From contig PNKH01000026.1 of the NCBI GenBank assembly GCA_013822345.1, positions 1-64,000 of the forward strand: DNA of 64,000 nucleotides, given 5' to 3'. The DNA is from Isosphaera sp. GTDB lineage: Bacteria > Planctomycetota > Planctomycetia > Gemmatales > Gemmataceae. How positions within the stretch are numbered: the stretch's first letter is position 1; every line of letters begins with the position of its first letter. Below the pieces are notes generated by a model. That model saw only the letters and a list, made by a program, of their open reading frames with translations. It did no database searches and was not told where the DNA came from. Positions 18,331 to 58,441 of the stretch are shown here, piece by piece. The translations under genes and the position numbers were made by a program.

Positions 18331-19464
18331 TCAGTAATCCCCAGGGACGTCGCCGGCGTTGCGGGTGAGCAGCGCGACGAACGTCTGGGCGGCGATCCCG
18401 GACCGGAGGAACGCGACGTGCCCGTCGGCGAACACCACGTTCGCCCCGCCCGGGTGGAAGCTGTACACCTCGCTGTTGTTCGTGCAGTTCACCACGCACG
18501 TCCCGGGCCGGGTGTTGTTCGGCTCGTCGGCCGCCGCCACCGCCTTCGCCGGGTCGTACCCGCCGGGGGCCATGATCAGGTCCCGGTCCGGCCACGCCGC
18601 CCCCTTCGGCACCGCCGCCGTCCCGAACGGCCGGCCCTGCCGCATCACCAGCGTCCCGGCCGCCATCTCGGCGATCACCACCGTCTGGCTCGACCCGTCG
18701 GCGATCATCCGGAACGTCGGCGGCCGCGCCCCGGTCGCGGCCGTCACCATCACCCCGAGCAGCTGGTCGCTGTTCAGCGCGACGCCCGGGGCCAGGATGC
18801 CGGTGTTCGTCGTCGCCGGCGGCCCGGCCCCGGCCAGGCGGTCGCTCACCCGCACCGTCGGGGCGTAGTCCCCGACGTGCATCCCGTTCCGCACGTCCCC
18901 CGCCCCGTAGGCGACCGTCCGCGGGGTCCCGGCCGACGGGCAGAGCATCACCTTCATCGGCAGCCGGCCGAGGTCCGGGTTCGGCCCGGCCGGGTCGTTC
19001 CAGTTCCGGGTCAGGTCGTACGCCGCGACCACGTTCCCCTGCTCCAGGTTCGACAGGATGAACACCGCGAACCCGTGCAGCCGGTTCGGGTACGGCGGCG
19101 GGGCGGTGGTGCTGGTCGCGGCCGGCGGCAGCACCCCGTACTGCGACTCGTAGTTCAGGACCGCGATCCCCTGCTGCTTCAGGTTGTTGGTGCACTGCGT
19201 CTTGGCCGCCGACTCGCGGACCTTCTGGACGGCCGGGAGGAGCAGCCCGACCAGCACGGCGATGATGGCGACCACCACCAGCAGCTCGACCAGGGTGAAG
19301 CCTCCTGGACCGCGGCCGTCCCGGCCGCTGCGACCGCGATCGTTCCGCGACCGGGGCGGCCGGGGACGCGATCGGGGGCGTGCCGCGGAGCGGCCGGGAC
19401 GGCCGCGGTCCAGGGCGAGCATGAACGCCCCGCGCCGGCGCCGGAGAGGGGGTGACGGGCACAT
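18331..19464 (-). CDS. DUF1559 prepilin-like protein with leader enlarged by a palindromic insertion
   Basis: A 377-residue member of the large planctomycete DUF1559 family. It has a type IV prepilin cleavage/methylation motif, [18 protein letters not shown], followed by the usual [12 protein letters not shown] helix, a beta-rich head domain, and the carboxyl-terminal H-X9-DG motif ([17 protein letters not shown]). Such proteins are pseudopilins exported through a type II/IV-pilus-like machine. Counting from ATG 19464, the leader before the cleavage site is 55 residues and very Arg/Pro-rich; 37 of these codons are the palindrome at 19304-19414. Without it the leader would be 18 residues, which is normal. 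An internal ATG at 19422 is an alternative start. It is convergent with the oxygenase-like gene. Confidence 0.85.
19304..19414. repeat. Inverted repeat, family R, inserted in-frame in a coding sequence
   Basis: A 111-base element with terminal inverted arms CCTGGACCGCGGCCGTCCCG and complement. The same ends bound elements at 38820-38929, and a close variant bounds 58321-58434. The inner sequence differs between copies. Here it lies inside the DUF1559 gene between the basic leader and the FTLVE motif. Its length is 37 codons exactly, with no stop in the coding frame. Confidence 0.88.
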
Positions 19465-19611
19465 GAAGAGGCCTCGGACCGGGGGGGACGGTACGGGAGC
19501 CGACAAAGCGCTCATCATGCCCCGGCGGCGGGACTTCTGTCAACGGGGTGCCGGGAAAAACGAACCGCCCCCGGTGTCGGGGGCGGTGTGCGGAATCGTG
19601 GTCGCCGGCGG

Positions 19612-20952
19612 TCAGATCTTCAGCACACCGGTGCTGTCGCCGAACGACTTCGCCGCGGCCCCCATCCGCTCGAACAGGGCCAGGTACAGGTTCGTCAGCG
19701 GGGTGTCGTCCCGCTTCGGGAAGACCACGTGCCGGCCGGCCGCCAGCGACCCGCCGCCCTTCCCGGCCACCAGGATCGGCAGGTCGTCGTGGTTGTGCCG
19801 GTTCCCGTCCCCGATCCCGCTCCCGTACACCACCATCGCGTTGTCCAGGAGCGTCGTCCCGTTCGCCTCCTTCACCGCCGCCATCCGGCCGAGGAGGTAA
19901 GCCAGCTGCTCGACGTGGAAGGTGTTGATCTTCCGGATCTTCTCCAGCTTCTTCGGGTCGCTCCCGTGGTGCGACAGCTCGTGGTGCCCCTCCGCCACCT
20001 CCAGCATCTTGTACGGCCGGTTGCTCCCGTCGTTCGCCAGCGGGAACGTCGCCACCCGGGTCAGGTCGGTCTGGAACGCCAGCACCAGCAGGTCGCCCAT
20101 CAGCCGGATGTGCTCCTGCACGTCCTTCGGGACGCCGGTCGGGGCCGGCATGTTCGGCCTGGCGGCCGGCTTCCCCGCCCCCGCCCGGGCCTTCTCGATC
20201 CGCTGCTCCACCTCCCGGACGCTGGTCAGGTACTCGTCCAGTTTCTTCCGGTCGCCCTGGCCGAGCGTCTTGTCCAGCCCCTTCGCGTCCTCGTTCACGA
20301 AGTCGAGGACGCTCTTGTTGAACAGGTCGCGCTTCGCCCGGGCCTCGGCCACGTCCTTCGGGTCGTTCCCGCCGAACAGCCGGTCGAACACCAGCTTCGG
20401 GTCGGTCTCCTTGGCGTTCGGGGTGCTCTCCGACCGCCAGCTCAGGTTCGCCGAGTAGGCGCACGAGTACCCGCTGTCGCAGTTCCCGGCGTTCAGCCCG
20501 CGCTCGATCCCCAGCTCCAGCGACGGGAACCGGGTCGCGTCCCCGACCGCCGCCGCGACGTGCTGGTCGGCCGACATCCCGACCTTGATGTCCGCCCCGT
20601 GGGTCTTCCGCGGCTGCCGGCCGGTGAGGAACGCGGACATCGCCCGGGCGTGGTCGCCGGGGCCGTCCCCGTTGGCCCGGGCCTTGTCGCACGCCAGCCC
20701 GGAGATGACGGTCAGGTGCGACTTGACGCCTTCCAGCGGCTTCAGGATCGCCGGCAGCTCGCCGAGCGGCCCGGCCGCCTTCGGGGTCCAGTCGGCCATG
20801 TTCACGCCGTTCGGGACGTACAGGAAGGCGAGCCGCCGCGGCGGGCCGGCCGCGGCCGCCGGGGCCGCCCCGGCCAGCGACTCCAACCACGGCAGGGCGA
20901 CGGCGGTCCCCAGCCCCTTCAGCACGGTCCGGCGGGTGACGGCGGTCTTCAT
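19612..20952 (-). CDS. DUF1552 domain protein (Tat-type leader)
   Basis: A 446-residue protein with a twin-arginine leader (TRRTVLKGLGTAVALPWLESL) and the DUF1552 opening RLAFLYVPNGVNMADWTP. Further family blocks are FLTGRQPRKT, SLELGIERG and GDLLVLAFQTDLTRVATF; near the end AMVVYGSGIGDGNRHNHDDLP resembles the sulfatase/DUF1501-like metal-binding region. DUF1552 genes occur almost always next to DUF1592 genes in Planctomycetes, and this one follows DUF1592 at 98 bases on the same strand. The biochemical role is unproven; a link with polymer or sugar breakdown has been suggested for the pair. The gap between the two holds a palindrome (20992-21043). Confidence 0.87.
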   Translation of the reverse strand: MKTAVTRRTVLKGLGTAVALPWLESLAGAAPAAAAGPPRRLAFLYVPNGVNMADWTPKAAGPLGELPAILKPLEGVKSHLTVISGLACDKARANGDGPGDHARAMSAFLTGRQPRKTHGADIKVGMSADQHVAAAVGDATRFPSLELGIERGLNAGNCDSGYSCAYSANLSWRSESTPNAKETDPKLVFDRLFGGNDPKDVAEARAKRDLFNKSVLDFVNEDAKGLDKTLGQGDRKKLDEYLTSVREVEQRIEKARAGAGKPAARPNMPAPTGVPKDVQEHIRLMGDLLVLAFQTDLTRVATFPLANDGSNRPYKMLEVAEGHHELSHHGSDPKKLEKIRKINTFHVEQLAYLLGRMAAVKEANGTTLLDNAMVVYGSGIGDGNRHNHDDLPILVAGKGGGSLAAGRHVVFPKRDDTPLTNLYLALFERMGAAAKSFGDSTGVLKI

Positions 20953-20991
20953 CGGCTCGGCTCCGTGGGGGCACTTCGGAATGTTGTGAGG

Positions 20992-21043
20992 CCCCGGTTA
21001 GCGACGCGTCGAAGACGCGTCTTCGACGCGTCGCTAACTGGGG
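20992..21043. repeat. Palindrome, family T, between DUF1592 and DUF1552 genes
   Basis: The 42-base core at 20997-21038 is a perfect palindrome starting GTTAGCGACGCGTCGAAGAC, flanked by CCCC and GGGG with one mismatch. A shorter copy with the same outer arm lies at 32160-32200. It ends seven bases before the DUF1592 stop on the minus strand. Confidence 0.88.
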
Positions 21044-21050
21044 CTGCAGT

Positions 21051-23462
21051 TTACTCCGTCCGCTTGCCTTTGCGCTTCTGGAACGGGTCGGACTTCACGA
21101 CCGCCAGCACCAGGCCCGAGAACGTGTCGCCCTTCGCCTTCGACGCGGACACGATCTCGTCCAGGGCGCACTTGTCGTAATACTCCAAACCCCGGCCGAG
21201 GGCAAAGGTTACGAGCTTGTCGGCGAAGCACCGGCGGAACTGGTCGGCCTTCCCGAGCAGCACCTTCCGCAGCTCCGCCGGGCCGCCGAACTTCTCCCCG
21301 CCCGGCAGCACCCCGGACGGCTCGATCGGCCTCTTGTTGTCCTGCGTCCGCCACGCCCCGACCGCGTCGAAGTTCTCCAGCCCGAACCCGAGCGGGTCGA
21401 GCTTGTTGTGGCACGTCGCGCAGCTCGGGTTCGCCCGGTGCTGCTCCATCTGCTGGCGGAGCGTCCCCTTCAGCTGCGGCGTCGGCGGCAGCTCCGGCAC
21501 GTCCGGGGCCGGCGGCGGCGGCGGGGTGCCGAGGATGTTCTCGAGGATCCACTTCCCGCGCTTGACCGGGCTGGTCCGGGTCGGGTTACTGGTGACCGTC
21601 AGGGTGCTCGCCATCGTGATGACGCCGCCGCGGCGGCCGTCCGGCAGCTTCACCTGGCGGAACTCCGGCCCGGTCACGTTCGGGATGCCGTAGTGCCTGG
21701 CCAGCCGCTCGTTGACGAACGTGTAGTCGGCGTCGAGGAACTCCAGAATGCTCCGGTCGGCCCGGACCACGTGTTCGAAGAACGCCTCGCCTTCCCGGGC
21801 CATCGCCGCCCGCAGCGGCTCGTCCCACCCGGGGAAGTACCCCTTGTCCGGGTCGGCGGTCTTCAGGTTCCGCAGCTGCAGCCACTGCCCGGCGAAGTTC
21901 TCGGCCAGGGCCTTCGCCTTCGGGTCCTTCAGCATCCGCTTGACCTGCGCCTCCAGCACCGCCGGCTTCCGCAGCTCGTTCCTCGCGGCCAGGCCGAACA
22001 GCTCCTCGTCCGGCATGCTCGACCACAGGAAGTACGACAGCCGGGTGGCGAACTCCCAGTCGTTGATGACCCGGACGGTCTCCGGCGCCTTCGGGTCGTC
22101 CTCGACCCGGTAGAGGAAGTGCGGCGAGACGAGGACCGCCTTCATCGGCAGGGCCAGGGCCTTCTCGAACGGCTCGCCCTGCTTGGTGGCCAGGTCGAAC
22201 AGCTTCATCAGGCGGGCGGTTTCCTCCGGCTTGACCGGCCGGCGGTACGCCCGGCGGGCGAAGTTCGCCAGCACCTTCTCGGCGGCCGGGCGGGCGTCGG
22301 CGGCCGACGCCGGGCGGGCCACCTGGAGCAACTTCAGCGACGCGGACGGCGGCGGGGCGACGGCCTTGAACGGCCCCTCGACCTCGATCAGCTCGAGCCC
22401 GAACTCCCGGGCCTTCCCGTCCTTGTCGGTGAACCCGTTGGTGAACGCCACCGCCACCCGCTTCTCGCCGGCCGGCAGCCGGGCCGTCACCTCGTAGACC
22501 TTCGCCTTGGCCGCCTCGGCGTCCACGGTGAACGTCTTCAGGTCCTTCCCGTCGACCCGGACCGTCACCTTCGGGAACTCGCCGCCGACCTTCGACCCCC
22601 ACCCGCGGAACCGGACGACGTACTCGCCCTCGGCCGGGAAGTTGTACTTCTCCAGGAACCCGGTCCCCTCGGACGTGAAGGTGATCTTCCGGGCGCCGCC
22701 GTTGGCGTTCCGGATCTTCGCCTCCCGCGGGATCGTCTGGATCGCCTGCGGGTTGTACCCCTGCTTCGAGCTCTTCGCCGCCTCCTCGACTGCCAGCGCC
22801 GCGGCCAGCACCTTGTCGGCCGCCGCCATGTACTTCTCGAGCAGGATCGGCTGGAACGACAGCACGTCGCCGATGTTGTCGAACCCGTACCCCACGTCGT
22901 CGGACGGGAAGTCGTCGGCCGGCTTGTGGTCGACCCCGACGAGGTCGCGGATGGTGTTGTTGTACTCGGCCCGGTTGAGCCGCCGGAGGGTGACCCGGCC
23001 GGGGTCCTTCGGGGCGGTGCAGTCGACCTTGGTGAGGGTGTTCTCGATCCAGGTGATGAGGAACTCCTTCTCCTCCTTGGTCGGCTGCGGCTTCTTCTCC
23101 GGCGGCATGTCGCCGGCGGCGAGGGCGTGCTGGACCGCCCCCCAGTCCTTGCGGTTCTTCCGGGCGTGGGCCTCGCTCGTGTACCCGTCCAACTGCAGCC
23201 CGCCGGCCGCCTTGTCGGCGTTGTGACACGCCAGGCAGTACTTCTTCAGCAGCGGCAGAACCTTCGTCCGGAAGGTGGGGTCTTCCGGCGGGGCCTTGGC
23301 GGCGACGGGGGCGGCCGGGACGGGCTGGCCGGGCAGGACCGGAGTGGCCGGCTCCGCGGCGGGCGACCGCCGGGACCCGGACAGCGCCCACCACCCGACG
23401 GCGAGGCACGCGGCCGCGGCCGTGGCGCTACCGATCAGGACGAGGGCGGGGCGGGACGCCAT
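21051..23462 (-). CDS. DUF1592 domain protein with cytochrome c-like sites (DUF1587/1592/1588/1585 type)
   Basis: An 803-residue exported protein with an amino-terminal membrane segment (ALVLIGSATAAAACLAVGWWAL). A CLACH heme motif lies near residue 74 in a short cytochrome c domain. The planctomycete order of DUF1587 (RLNRAEYNNTIRDLVG), a carbohydrate-binding-like insert, then DUF1592 (FARRAYRRPV, WEFATRLSYFLWSSMPDEEL) and DUF1588/1585 (HYGIPNVTG, PSCATCHNKLDPLGFGLENF) can be followed. A second CxxCH, CATCH, is near residue 679. The family is thought to be an exported, possibly redox-active or polymer-acting protein paired with DUF1552. The second ATG (23462) is chosen because GGAG is eight bases before it; the ATG two codons upstream overlaps that GGAG. 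Confidence 0.88.
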   Translation of the reverse strand: MASRPALVLIGSATAAAACLAVGWWALSGSRRSPAAEPATPVLPGQPVPAAPVAAKAPPEDPTFRTKVLPLLKKYCLACHNADKAAGGLQLDGYTSEAHARKNRKDWGAVQHALAAGDMPPEKKPQPTKEEKEFLITWIENTLTKVDCTAPKDPGRVTLRRLNRAEYNNTIRDLVGVDHKPADDFPSDDVGYGFDNIGDVLSFQPILLEKYMAAADKVLAAALAVEEAAKSSKQGYNPQAIQTIPREAKIRNANGGARKITFTSEGTGFLEKYNFPAEGEYVVRFRGWGSKVGGEFPKVTVRVDGKDLKTFTVDAEAAKAKVYEVTARLPAGEKRVAVAFTNGFTDKDGKAREFGLELIEVEGPFKAVAPPPSASLKLLQVARPASAADARPAAEKVLANFARRAYRRPVKPEETARLMKLFDLATKQGEPFEKALALPMKAVLVSPHFLYRVEDDPKAPETVRVINDWEFATRLSYFLWSSMPDEELFGLAARNELRKPAVLEAQVKRMLKDPKAKALAENFAGQWLQLRNLKTADPDKGYFPGWDEPLRAAMAREGEAFFEHVVRADRSILEFLDADYTFVNERLARHYGIPNVTGPEFRQVKLPDGRRGGVITMASTLTVTSNPTRTSPVKRGKWILENILGTPPPPPAPDVPELPPTPQLKGTLRQQMEQHRANPSCATCHNKLDPLGFGLENFDAVGAWRTQDNKRPIEPSGVLPGGEKFGGPAELRKVLLGKADQFRRCFADKLVTFALGRGLEYYDKCALDEIVSASKAKGDTFSGLVLAVVKSDPFQKRKGKRTE

Positions 23463-23837
23463 CGGCACATCTCCGGCGAACTGCAGGCAGGCGGGGGCGG
23501 GCAGGCGAGTGAAACACTATACCGGCGGCGGGGGAGGGATTCTTCACAACTTAGCCGAAAACCGACCGCGTCGCAATCGAATAACCACGGGTCGGGGGTC
23601 CGCGGGGGGGTTCTCATCCGCCCTTCACACCCCCGTTTAGCCGCGACGCGGAGTCTTCGGAGCGGAGCGCGGCGTATGACTCGCGCTCCGCTCCGAAGAC
23701 TCCGCGTCGCGGCTAAACGCGAGCCCCGTGTGCGCTTGCCTCCGGCAACGGGATCGGCCACAATGTTCAGCAGAGTGATCGGGCCGCCCACCTCCCCCTG
23801 CCCGGCCCCGCCCGCCGTCTCGTCGCCGAGGCAACCG
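23463..23837. other. Divergent intergenic region (375 bases)
   Basis: This gap separates divergently transcribed genes and should hold promoters for both. ACTATA at 23516-23521 reads TATAGT on the minus strand, a fair -10 for the DUF1592 gene, though no -35 is evident at 16-18 bases. The stretch 23540-23590 is less GC-rich than its surroundings. A long palindrome occupies 23634-23719. I see no convincing small gene. Confidence 0.5.
23634..23719. repeat. Long inverted repeat in a divergent intergenic region
   Basis: Arms of about 37 bases (beginning CGTTTAGCCGCGACGCGGAG) enclose a loop around GCGTATGA. The TTAGC-GCGACGCG ends resemble family T but the interior differs. The position between two divergent starts argues against a plain terminator role for this copy. 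Confidence 0.88.
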
Positions 23838-38819: not shown

Positions 38820-38929
38820 CCTGGACCGCGGCCGTCCCGGCCGCTGCTGCCGAGGTCGTCGGGCGATCGAGTCCTCCGCAAGCACCCCGCCCGGCGTCGG
38901 TGGTGCGGCCGGGACGGCCGCGGTCCAGG
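38820..38929. repeat. Inverted repeat, family R, between convergent genes
   Basis: A 110-base element with ends CCTGGACCGCGGCCGTCCCG and complement, the same ends as the element at 19304. The interior (about 55 bases) differs from that copy. It fills nearly the whole gap between the leuA stop and the stop of the opposing NT-HD gene. Confidence 0.9.
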
Positions 38930-44679: not shown

Positions 44680-44753
44680 GCGCGGCGCCTCGGGGAGGTG
44701 GCGGGGGGCGTGCGGGCGAATTGTAGACGGGCCGGAGACCGGCGGCGAACCCG

Positions 44754-44889
44754 CGGGTCTGGTAGGGTGGGCCGAGTCTTCGTGTCCCACCACCCCCATC
44801 CGCCGAGCGGTGGGCCGAGTCTTCGAGTCCCACCACCCCCATCCGCCGAGCGGTGGGACTCGAAGACTCGGCCCACCCTACCAGACCCG
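44754..44889. repeat. Compound inverted repeat, family P, with a duplicated left arm
   Basis: The outer ends CGGGTCTGGTAGGGTGGGCC pair with the complement at the right end. Inside, a unit of about 43 bases (GTGGGCCGAGTCTTCG... to CCGCCGAGCG) occurs twice in direct order on the left side, then a single inverted copy (GGTGGGACTCGAAGACTCGG) follows. The inner arm is a third variant (GAGTCTTCGAGTCCCACC) of the family P arm. It lies between the PEP-CTERM gene stop and the dehydrogenase start, both on the minus strand. Confidence 0.88.
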
Positions 44890-44891
44890 AC

Positions 44892-45713
44892 CTACCGCCG
44901 GCGGAGGCGGCGGGCGGCGAGGCCGAGCACCCCGACGGCCGCGAGCGCACCGCTCGCCGGCTCCGGGACGGCGTTCAGTTGGTTGTTGATGACGACGGCG
45001 TCGAGGAACGACCCGTTGGGGTTGGCGATCAGGCTCACGAACGAGACCTGGTTCAGCCGCAGCCCGCCCGCCGGGACGCTGCGGAACCCGAGCGGGTCCG
45101 GGGCGTTATACATGACCCCGTCCAGGAAGATGTTCCAGGTCCGGACGACCGGGTCGACCTCCACCCGCACCTCGTGCCACACCCCGGGGGTGATCCGCAT
45201 CCCGGTCAACTCCACGGGGCAGCCGGAGATGCACGAGTCCTCCACCCCGTCGAGCACCCCGAGCTGGAGGTTCGAGTTCACGAACCACTGGACGGCGATC
45301 CCGAAGATGTCCGCGAACCGGCTGTCCGCGACGCGGAAGATCAGGCTGTCGGTGACTGCCCCGGGGACCATGAACCGGACGCTCACGCTGAACGGGTCGA
45401 GGAGGTCCTGGGCCACGACGCGCAGCGCCGTGGCGGTGTTCTGGAAGAACGCGGCCGCCCCGTCGCCCTCGAACGCGGTCCGGCCGACCACGACCCCGCC
45501 GCCCTGCTGCCACGGCCCGGCCCACCCGGGCTCGCCGGCCCCCTGGTTCATCAGCGGGGCGTTGTTGACGTTGAACGGGGAGTTGTTGGCGACGCCGTCG
45601 GCGTTGATGCCGGTCACGTCGTTAAACCCGGACTGGATGATCGCGGCCGGGGCGGGGCCGGCGCAAAGGACGAGCAGGGCGGCCAGCGGGCCGCGGGCGG
45701 GGCGGGCGAGCAT
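44892..45713 (-). CDS. PEP-CTERM sorting domain protein
   Basis: A 273-residue exported protein. A signal peptide (LAALLVLCAGPAPAA) leads to a beta-rich, concanavalin-like domain (FSVSVRFMVPGAV, GVWHEVRVEVDPVVRTWNIFLDGVMYNA, cited in part) and the end VPEPASGALAAVGVLGLAARRLRRR: the VPEP motif, one transmembrane helix and a basic tail, the PEP-CTERM arrangement. Such proteins are handled by an exosortase and displayed with extracellular polymer. A Cys pair (SCISGC) near residue 160 may form a disulfide. The ligand or function of the domain is unknown; the LamG-like fold suggests glycan binding. No exosortase gene is in the window. Confidence 0.82.
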   Translation of the reverse strand: MLARPARGPLAALLVLCAGPAPAAIIQSGFNDVTGINADGVANNSPFNVNNAPLMNQGAGEPGWAGPWQQGGGVVVGRTAFEGDGAAAFFQNTATALRVVAQDLLDPFSVSVRFMVPGAVTDSLIFRVADSRFADIFGIAVQWFVNSNLQLGVLDGVEDSCISGCPVELTGMRITPGVWHEVRVEVDPVVRTWNIFLDGVMYNAPDPLGFRSVPAGGLRLNQVSFVSLIANPNGSFLDAVVINNQLNAVPEPASGALAAVGVLGLAARRLRRR

Positions 45714-46127
45714 CGGGCGAGACTCCGGCGGGTGGAACGGTAGGGGTGCGGCGGCGGGCGTCGGCCCGCGTCGGCCGCACGGACGAGACTACCGGACCGG
45801 CGGGCGGGTTGCAACGACGTGCCCGGTCAACCCCCACCGGCTCGCACCGCGGGGTGGTCGCGCTTCGCGACCCGACGACGCACCACCCGGCTCCACAGGT
45901 GGCATCCCCTCACCCGCCGCTCCGCGGCGACCTCTCCCCAGCGGGGAGAGGTGGGGCTGGTGCGATCCTTCTTCCGGTCACCGACCCGGGAAGCTGCCGA
46001 GGCGGCCGGCGGCCCCCACCTCTCCCCGCTGGGGAGAGGTCGCCGCGGAGCGGCGGGTGAGGGGATGCCACGCACCGTGAAGTCCGGCGGCCGACTCCGG
46101 CCCGTAGGCCCGAACCGCCCACCGGCG
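45714..46127. other. Intergenic region (414 bases) dominated by a palindrome
   Basis: It lies between the start of the PEP-CTERM gene and the end of the phosphoesterase gene, both on the minus strand. The span 45899-46071 is a long nested palindrome. The remainder (45714-45898 and 46072-46127) shows no convincing gene, and no clear promoter hexamers were found. Confidence 0.55.
45899..46071. repeat. Very long nested inverted repeat
   Basis: Arms of about 58 bases (45899-45956 and 46014-46071) start GTGGCATCCCCTCACCCGCC and its complement, with a 57-base centre. Each arm holds its own internal hairpin CCTCTCCCC-(AGC)-GGGGAGAGG, so a folded strand could form a clover or cross shape. The core hairpin also occurs at 5776-5802. 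Confidence 0.9.
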
Positions 46128-58317: not shown

Positions 58318-58320
58318 CCT

Positions 58321-58434
58321 CCTGGAGCGCGGGCGTCCCGCCCGCACCACGCATGCGGTTCGGGAGCCGACAGAGTTTGTCCCGTCGCTCGCCGAGTTGG
58401 CGAGGTTTAGCGGGCGGGACGCCCGCGCTCCAGG
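58321..58434. repeat. Inverted repeat, family R variant, between nuoB and nuoC
   Basis: A 114-base element with ends CCTGGAGCGCGGGCGTCCCG and complement, close to the ends at 19304 and 38820 (GA-C versus GA-G and neighbouring compensated changes). It starts four bases after the nuoB stop. Its right end (CCAGG) runs directly into AAAGCAG and the nuoC ATG, so AGGA for ribosome binding is partly supplied by the element. Confidence 0.9.
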
Positions 58435-58441
58435 AAAGCAG

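Follow-up and report, generated by a model that had tools for sequence, protein, structure and literature searches.

How does a palindromic element come to lie inside a reading frame, directly before the predicted cleavage site of a prepilin leader, and persist there? The question is raised by a DUF1559 prepilin-like gene in the 64,000-nucleotide stretch of DNA analysed here (the window), on contig C26 of its source genome (G000; 7.47 Mb, 226 contigs). An initial annotation of the window had described a 111-base palindrome, of a family called R, in this leader. We have followed the element through the genome, its leader insertions and its candidate transposase.

Results

The prepilin gene and the element in its leader

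The open reading frame at 18331-19518 on the reverse strand matches, in a profile search, both the N_methyl profile PF07963 (26.3 bits; cut-off 21.2) and the DUF1559 profile PF07596 (133 bits). The features of the locus are collected in Table 1. The two arms of the palindrome are 29 nt each, 97% complementary and 53 nt apart, and the fold of the 111-nt strand has a predicted energy of −96.2 kcal/mol, compared with −61.4 ± 3.8 for shuffled sequences (z = −9.3; 0 of 200 shuffles). The arms, the fold and the Pfam matches bear out the placing of a family R palindrome directly before FTLVE in a DUF1559 leader. The initial annotation had also stated that the element adds exactly 37 codons without a stop. 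The 37 codons are indeed open, but the net gain is probably 126 nt (42 codons) rather than 111 nt, because a decayed copy of the cleavage motif is present upstream of the element. The empty leader, for which 18 residues had been given, was for the same reason probably 13 residues long, the other five codons being the duplicated motif. An internal ATG at 19422, to which the leader was thought perhaps to have moved, lies within the decayed copy, upstream of the element in the reading direction, so its use would not remove the element. A start downstream of the element, which had been considered as well, was not found in the window gene, where no in-frame ATG, GTG or TTG occurs between the beginning of the element and FTLVE.

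Among the matches listed from 19 genus genomes, the best to the window gene has 47% identity. Because the genus orthologues are too distant for DNA alignment, empty sites are represented here by paralogues.

Table 1. Positions in the window of the prepilin gene, the parts of its leader and the family R copies.
Feature	Position	Strand	Remarks
DUF1559 prepilin-like gene with the element	18331..19464	-	putative start; ORF open to 19518
Working prepilin motif copy	19288..19302	-	GGC TTC ACC CTG GTC (G-F-T-L-V), then GAG (E5)
Family R palindromic element in the prepilin leader	19303..19413	-	in leader register; 111 bp, 37 codons (...GRDGRGPG)
Arm	19304..19332		REP-like hairpin GCGGCCG-TCC-CGGCCGC with foot CCTGGACC
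Inverted second arm	19386..19414		
Decayed second motif copy	19414..19428	-	GCG TTC ATG CTC GCC (A-F-M-L-A), no Glu after it
Probable ancestral leader	19426..19464	-	ATG at 19464, 13 codons before the left Phe; putative start codon
Second family R copy	38820..38929		away from DUF1559 leaders
Third family R copy	58320..58435		GGGCG/CGCCC arm variant; away from DUF1559 leaders

Family R in the genome

The top matches to the element elsewhere in the genome have 92, 90 and 82% identity over 109–113 bp, and with the 111-bp sequence as the query at least 40 near-full-length places were found (40 of 801 first-look candidates were scored). Arm sequences with up to two mismatches occur 180 times in the forward and 180 times in the reverse orientation in the 7.47 Mb, compared with 2 and 0 matches for a reversed-pattern control. 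From about 180 paired copies, 60 distinct ones were examined, 9 in leaders and 51 elsewhere. The dispersed unit consists of two REP-like palindromes in inverted orientation, and the arm, CCTGGACCGCGGCCGTCCCGGCCGC, carries no GTAG at its hairpin foot. One stem pair of the hairpin varies: in the 139 distinct arms compared, it is C-G in 125, G-C in 11 and unpaired in 3; the changes at this pair are compensatory. The middle of the element varies as well. Of the 51 non-leader copies, 20 have a core length of 107, as do five of the nine leader copies, and compact forms have 56–72 nt.

A test of codon-position bias flagged three of the 51 non-leader copies as lying in genes, one of them convincingly. 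Since the known leader copies went unflagged (seven of nine were scored as not in a gene, and two were too short), this test is blind to leader insertions. The copy at G000:C2:43142-43252 (L059:3543-3653) lies in frame in a 1066-codon acyltransferase-like ORF and is read there in another of its reading frames (WTAAVPAAA...AAGTAAVQ); at least one further gene thus seems to carry the element. A shorter copy at G000:C5:76287-76356 (L123) has a palindrome that extends past the usual ends (CGTCTGACCTGG / CCAGGTCAGACG). Two copies on C3 and C14 of the same genome (L073 and L081) have an additional tandem arm, suggesting that single arms can be gained or lost.

The window also holds other palindromes. 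Perfect inverted arms of 58 nt, 57 nt apart, are found at 45899-46071 and do not have the family R sequence. Long inverted repeats at 835-927 and 44739-44904 have GTAGGGTGGGCCGAG...CCCACC in common and are perhaps another dispersed palindrome family, one that contains GTAG. A 27-nt palindrome with no spacer is located at 20991-21044, between the ORFs 19612-20952 and 21051-23468. An Rfam scan of the window found only a tRNA.

A RAYT gene between family R arms

Five Y1_Tnp matches were found in the genome. A RAYT gene on C49 (L125:1195-1845) encodes a protein of 216 aa that scores 85.6 bits with the NCBIfam model REP_Tyr_transpos (cut-off 80). It lies between inverted R arms. The first, before the start of the gene, has no mismatches, and the second, which overlaps the ORF at its 3′ end, has one. 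R arms are also present at all four of the genus homologues with 65–69% identity, on both sides in three of them (L285–L287) and on one side in L288, which is cut by its contig. At the loci of seven genus homologues with 31–46% identity, no R arms were seen at up to three mismatches; four weaker genus matches, which came without a locus, were left out of this comparison. This association of gene and arms is the strongest sign that the palindromes are probably mobile, non-autonomous partners of the C49 RAYT.

A second RAYT, at G000:C14:8495-8758 (L126:1126-1794), has a REP_Tyr_transpos score of 87.9 bits and lies beside a different, AGGCATTCCTGCC-like repeat, which is perhaps the family that it partners.

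Recurrence at one codon of DUF1559 genes

The leaders of DUF1559 genes were surveyed in 115 of 137 matches; the other 22, which begin after profile position 2 and represent fragments or internal parts, were dropped. A recognizable leader motif is present in 109 of these 115 genes and absent in 6. Nine of the 115 leaders contain a complete palindrome: C26 (the window), C1, C18, C19, C29, C48, C51, C73 and C102. A tenth, C106, contains a single arm only. In all ten carriers the element is in frame and directly before the same Phe codon. About 0.03 copies would be expected by chance at these 115 codons, assuming an even distribution of 180 copies across one tenth of the genome. The DUF1559 match is free of stops and runs from profile position 1 to at least 263 of 268 in eight of the nine carriers of a complete element; in C19 it covers only 1–63. 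The nine in-frame cases at the same codon lend support to the view, put forward in the initial annotation, that an element has entered a coding sequence and been tolerated.

Patterns based on these leaders were searched for in other genomes. In the 19 genus genomes, the right arm followed by TTCAC within 9 nt gave nine matches, all in this genome, and six of the nine are at DUF1559 genes. With the spacing left free at 4–34 nt, there were eight matches in the same set, again all in this genome; seven have identical spacing and C73 has 3 nt more, and the pattern misses C102 and C106. A degenerate protein-level pattern gave nine matches, all in this genome, which include nine of the ten carriers (C73 is missed); the 94 other family genomes gave no match. 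As the pattern is absent from these and from the 18 other genus genomes, the insert was not found to be a feature of most orthologues, an outcome that had also been considered.

Four matches to the leader pattern were obtained in 84,980 named genomes, a set that perhaps does not include this genome. In the 240 nt upstream of three of them, no exact inverted repeat reaches 10 nt, the contig stretch being short at L275. The fourth, L272 (JALORE010000237.1, a Planctomycetota MAG), was rejected as a further leader insertion. The palindrome upstream of its FTLVE gene (L272:1414-1546; 21-nt arms, 90% complementary, 91 nt apart) is of a different dispersed family, with 68 similar matches in that MAG (40 of 367 candidates scored), and it is outside the leader, because it ends just before the likely GTG start. 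At C48:29062, where the leader DNA ends in CGCGGTCCAGG before GTTCACC, no second arm was seen by eye over 507 bases, and this leader was not counted. A GGAAC variant supposed to be common to the three compact leader copies was ruled out, since the sequence reads GAG.

A second copy of the cleavage motif

In all nine carriers of a complete element, a second, decayed (A)FTL(V)-like motif lies upstream of the element in the same register; in C18 it is only PVRLCLD. The distance between the two motif copies is 126 nt for the five full-length elements and 78 nt for the three compact ones and C19. Over the nine carriers, the left and right 15-mers agree at 90 of 135 positions, compared with a permuted mean of 85.5 (P = 0.048). 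In the window gene, the left motif is weak (9 of 15, a score that another upstream offset also reaches), and in C18, where the start codon is ambiguous, it is barely recognizable (7 of 15, with another offset reaching 10). Since agreement in such single genes is weak, the claim of a duplication rests on the fixed register across genes. In eight of the nine carriers, the left Phe position is preceded by an ATG or GTG at a distance of 4–13 codons (4–5 codons in three), and native leaders have a median of 9 codons from start to Phe, with a 10–90% range of 6–13. The simplest reading would be that the native start and leader have been kept, and that a motif copy lacking Glu5, then the element and then the working motif come after them.

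Other copies in the genome were examined for duplications of their flanks. The longest common substring of the two flanks gave no general target-site duplication (5.84 vs. 5.71 ± 0.18 for re-paired flanks; 58 copies including those in leaders). For the 51 non-leader copies, no flanking duplication was detected in an offset scan (maximum z of 2.99, with 17% of permutations as high) or in the geometry of the leaders (5.57 vs. 5.48 ± 0.15). When the flanks of 45 copies were searched for a target motif, nothing strong emerged beyond the element's own ends; the crude orientation score used there left 16 of 61 copies unoriented, including the window's, and disagrees with the direction given by the aligner for some.

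There are two candidates for the origin of the second motif: an insertion that duplicated 12–15 bp, or a combined unit of element and motif that spread as a whole. The latter is favoured by the right-hand motif of the carriers, which is TTCACC in 8 of 10, compared with 38 of 99 empty leaders (P = 0.017), and CACCCTGG in 5 of 10, compared with 3 of 99 (P = 1 × 10−4); Val4 is present in 6 of 10, compared with 14 of 99 (P = 0.002). The enrichment of CACCCTGG could reflect a common donor, rather than independent insertions.

We regard it as possible, if somewhat doubtful, that one early insertion made a unit of the element and GG-FTL(V), which then spread among the DUF1559 paralogues. The spread would have gone through recombination at the conserved FTLVELL stretch, or through cutting of TTCACC-CT by the RAYT at its CT, and would explain why codon, orientation and frame are identical. 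Together with the enriched motif, the shared orientation of the full-length leader copies speaks for such spread, all five middles beginning with TCC and ending with AGC or GGC in the reading direction, as do the compact elements of C29 and C102, which have most of the loop in common. However, the middles of the leader copies do not cluster together. The nearest relative of each of the five full-length copies is a different non-leader copy, with middle identities of 82, 89, 89, 84 and 74%, whereas the best identities to another leader copy are 62, 84, 84, 77 and 67%. Moreover, motif agreement is slightly greater within genes than between genes, at the P value given above, and this gene-specific agreement weakly favours local duplication at insertion.

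A further idea, which we consider unlikely, is that the mobile unit consists of the palindrome and the prepilin motif and homes, in frame, to the cleavage-motif codons of the paralogous family. The cut by the RAYT would fall on the 3′ side of the element, at the CT of TTCACC-CT-GG; rejoining would take place at the corresponding CT of a second prepilin gene, and the motif would be restored on each insertion. According to the available text of PMC8266576, the cut beside the REP is made at CT by the RAYTs of Escherichia and Stenotrophomonas and at CT or CA by that of Marinomonas. The idea is testable, because the foot CCTGG and TTCACCCTGG each contain CT; on the leader strand, the contrast for cutting at CT would be TTCACCCTGG vs. 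TTCACGCTGATC.

Reading frame and start of translation

All nine complete leader copies are in frame and open, compared with 25 of the 51 copies elsewhere that are in frame (P = 0.0035). If translation started within or downstream of the element, the element would be an extragenic 5′ element, which Di Nocera et al. (2013, PMC3733652) propose for many N-terminal REPs. In C51, C1 and C18, there is an in-frame GTG inside the element, with a TTG as well in C18; the different palindrome at L272, which ends shortly before the probable GTG start of its FTLVE gene, provides an example of such a position, and the available part of Di Nocera et al. warns of misannotated N-termini. We nevertheless find this explanation improbable, both from the frame of the nine copies and from the window gene and five of the other eight, which have no in-frame ATG, GTG or TTG inside the element.

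Probable independence of the insertions

In a 57-row tree of DUF1559 domains, from which C19 and the single-arm C106 are absent, the eight placed carriers need eight changes, and at least six of these are forced by supported branches. A single origin appears in 0% of 200 bootstrap trees, and the best match to the window gene in its own genome, among the matches listed, is C6:87075, whose leader has no element. Thus, although all carriers found are DUF1559 genes of the same architecture, it is most improbable that one element-bearing gene was copied and its copies diverged. With the carriers scattered and their nearest copies different, the set is not accounted for by a single gene duplication or by one element common to all.

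Misjoining of contigs at the 111-bp repeat in a 226-contig genome with about 180 similar palindromes is hardly credible as the source of these leaders, because nine junctions of the same register, with starts near the native distance, are unlikely to arise from random joins.

Discussion

We consider it likely that family R is a REPIN/TIRtron-like, non-autonomous palindrome that is mobilized by a RAYT, has repeatedly become established in prepilin leaders and is tolerated there. The element family, the RAYT gene between arms, and the recurrence, frame, position and scatter of the leader copies can be read directly from the sequence. With its two inverted REP-like hairpin arms and variable middle, family R would be mobilized in trans by a RAYT-type HUH transposase and would repeatedly become established right before the cleavage-site Phe of DUF1559 prepilin genes. 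Translation would begin at the ancestral start and pass through the decayed FTL(V) copy and then the element, in a frame predicted to give an Arg/Gly/Pro-rich peptide that fits the basic portion of a prepilin leader. Cleavage by the prepilin peptidase between G or A and FTLVE would discard everything upstream, and the mature protein would be unchanged. The element would be tolerated because the leader is predicted to be cut off, and the leader would be a refuge because insertions elsewhere in genes are presumably harmful in most cases. Mobility by the RAYT, translation, cleavage and neutrality are what we infer. A point against this explanation is the duplication of the motif, 12–15 bp at leaders and absent at the 51 other copies, which is unexpected for HUH transposition; insertion of the IS200/IS605 type gives no target duplication.

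These results suggest that a cleaved leader peptide can be a safe landing place for mobile DNA within genes. The nine carriers, all in one genome and filled at an identical codon of one family, form a replicated natural experiment on the survival of selfish DNA in genes, and the predicted reason for survival, that the leader is cut off, is directly testable. The 99 empty and 10 filled leaders in one genome also provide a concrete RAYT system for target choice. If the motif travels with the element, this would be a new way of homing; and if the palindrome and motif do home as a unit to these codons, the mobile element would have become adapted to the very gene family in which it finds shelter.

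Comparison with known systems

Rickettsia palindromic elements (RPEs) were reportedly described by Ogata in 2000 and 2002. As presented in the accessible part of a review (PMC10969869), they resemble family R in being short palindromes in frame in protein-coding genes. They enter unrelated genes, whereas family R is found in one paralogous family, at one codon of a leader that is predicted to be cleaved, and has a RAYT partner. The leader copies are RPE-like in that they are stop-free insertions in frame, and the protein appears otherwise intact in eight of the nine carriers.

Intragenic REPs, as covered in the available part of PMC3733652, lie within ORFs of several species, and some are N-terminal. 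In contrast with family R, many of them are in genes for DNA synthesis or repair and mostly at different sites. The nearest parallel in that part of the paper is recB of two Xanthomonas species, with a REP at about the same site. There is also a precedent for a small mobile repeat whose reading frame contributes to an N-terminal signal predicted to be cleaved. In the accessible part of its source, it involves a single gene, another element family and another type of signal peptide, and no recurrence at one codon is described. Palindromes in prepilin or DUF1559 leaders are not described in the titles and abstract beginnings of the literature searched. Likewise, recurrence at one codon in the discarded part of one paralogous family, with a RAYT partner, was not found in the available portions of PMC3733652, PMC3116915, PMC8266576, PMC10969869 and PMC2759123.

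Family R is also close to RAYT-associated repeats. REPINs, in the available text of Bertels and Rainey (2011, PMC3116915), also have inverted REP-like hairpins around a spacer, a high copy number and a RAYT gene flanked by the same repeats. They are described there as primarily extragenic, whereas at least nine copies of family R are in genes at one fixed codon, and the arms of family R, unlike those of REPINs, have no GTAG tag. TIRtrons with TIRYT (Di Nocera et al. 2013, PMC3733652, from the part available) share with family R a RAYT-like gene between inverted repeats without GTAG. Their repeats sometimes overlap the end of the gene, and they are self-complementary and dispersed as dimers, as in family R; recurrent in-frame targeting of one gene family is not described in that part of the paper. 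Because its arms are without GTAG, the system fits TIRtron/TIRYT better than the canonical GTAG REPIN.
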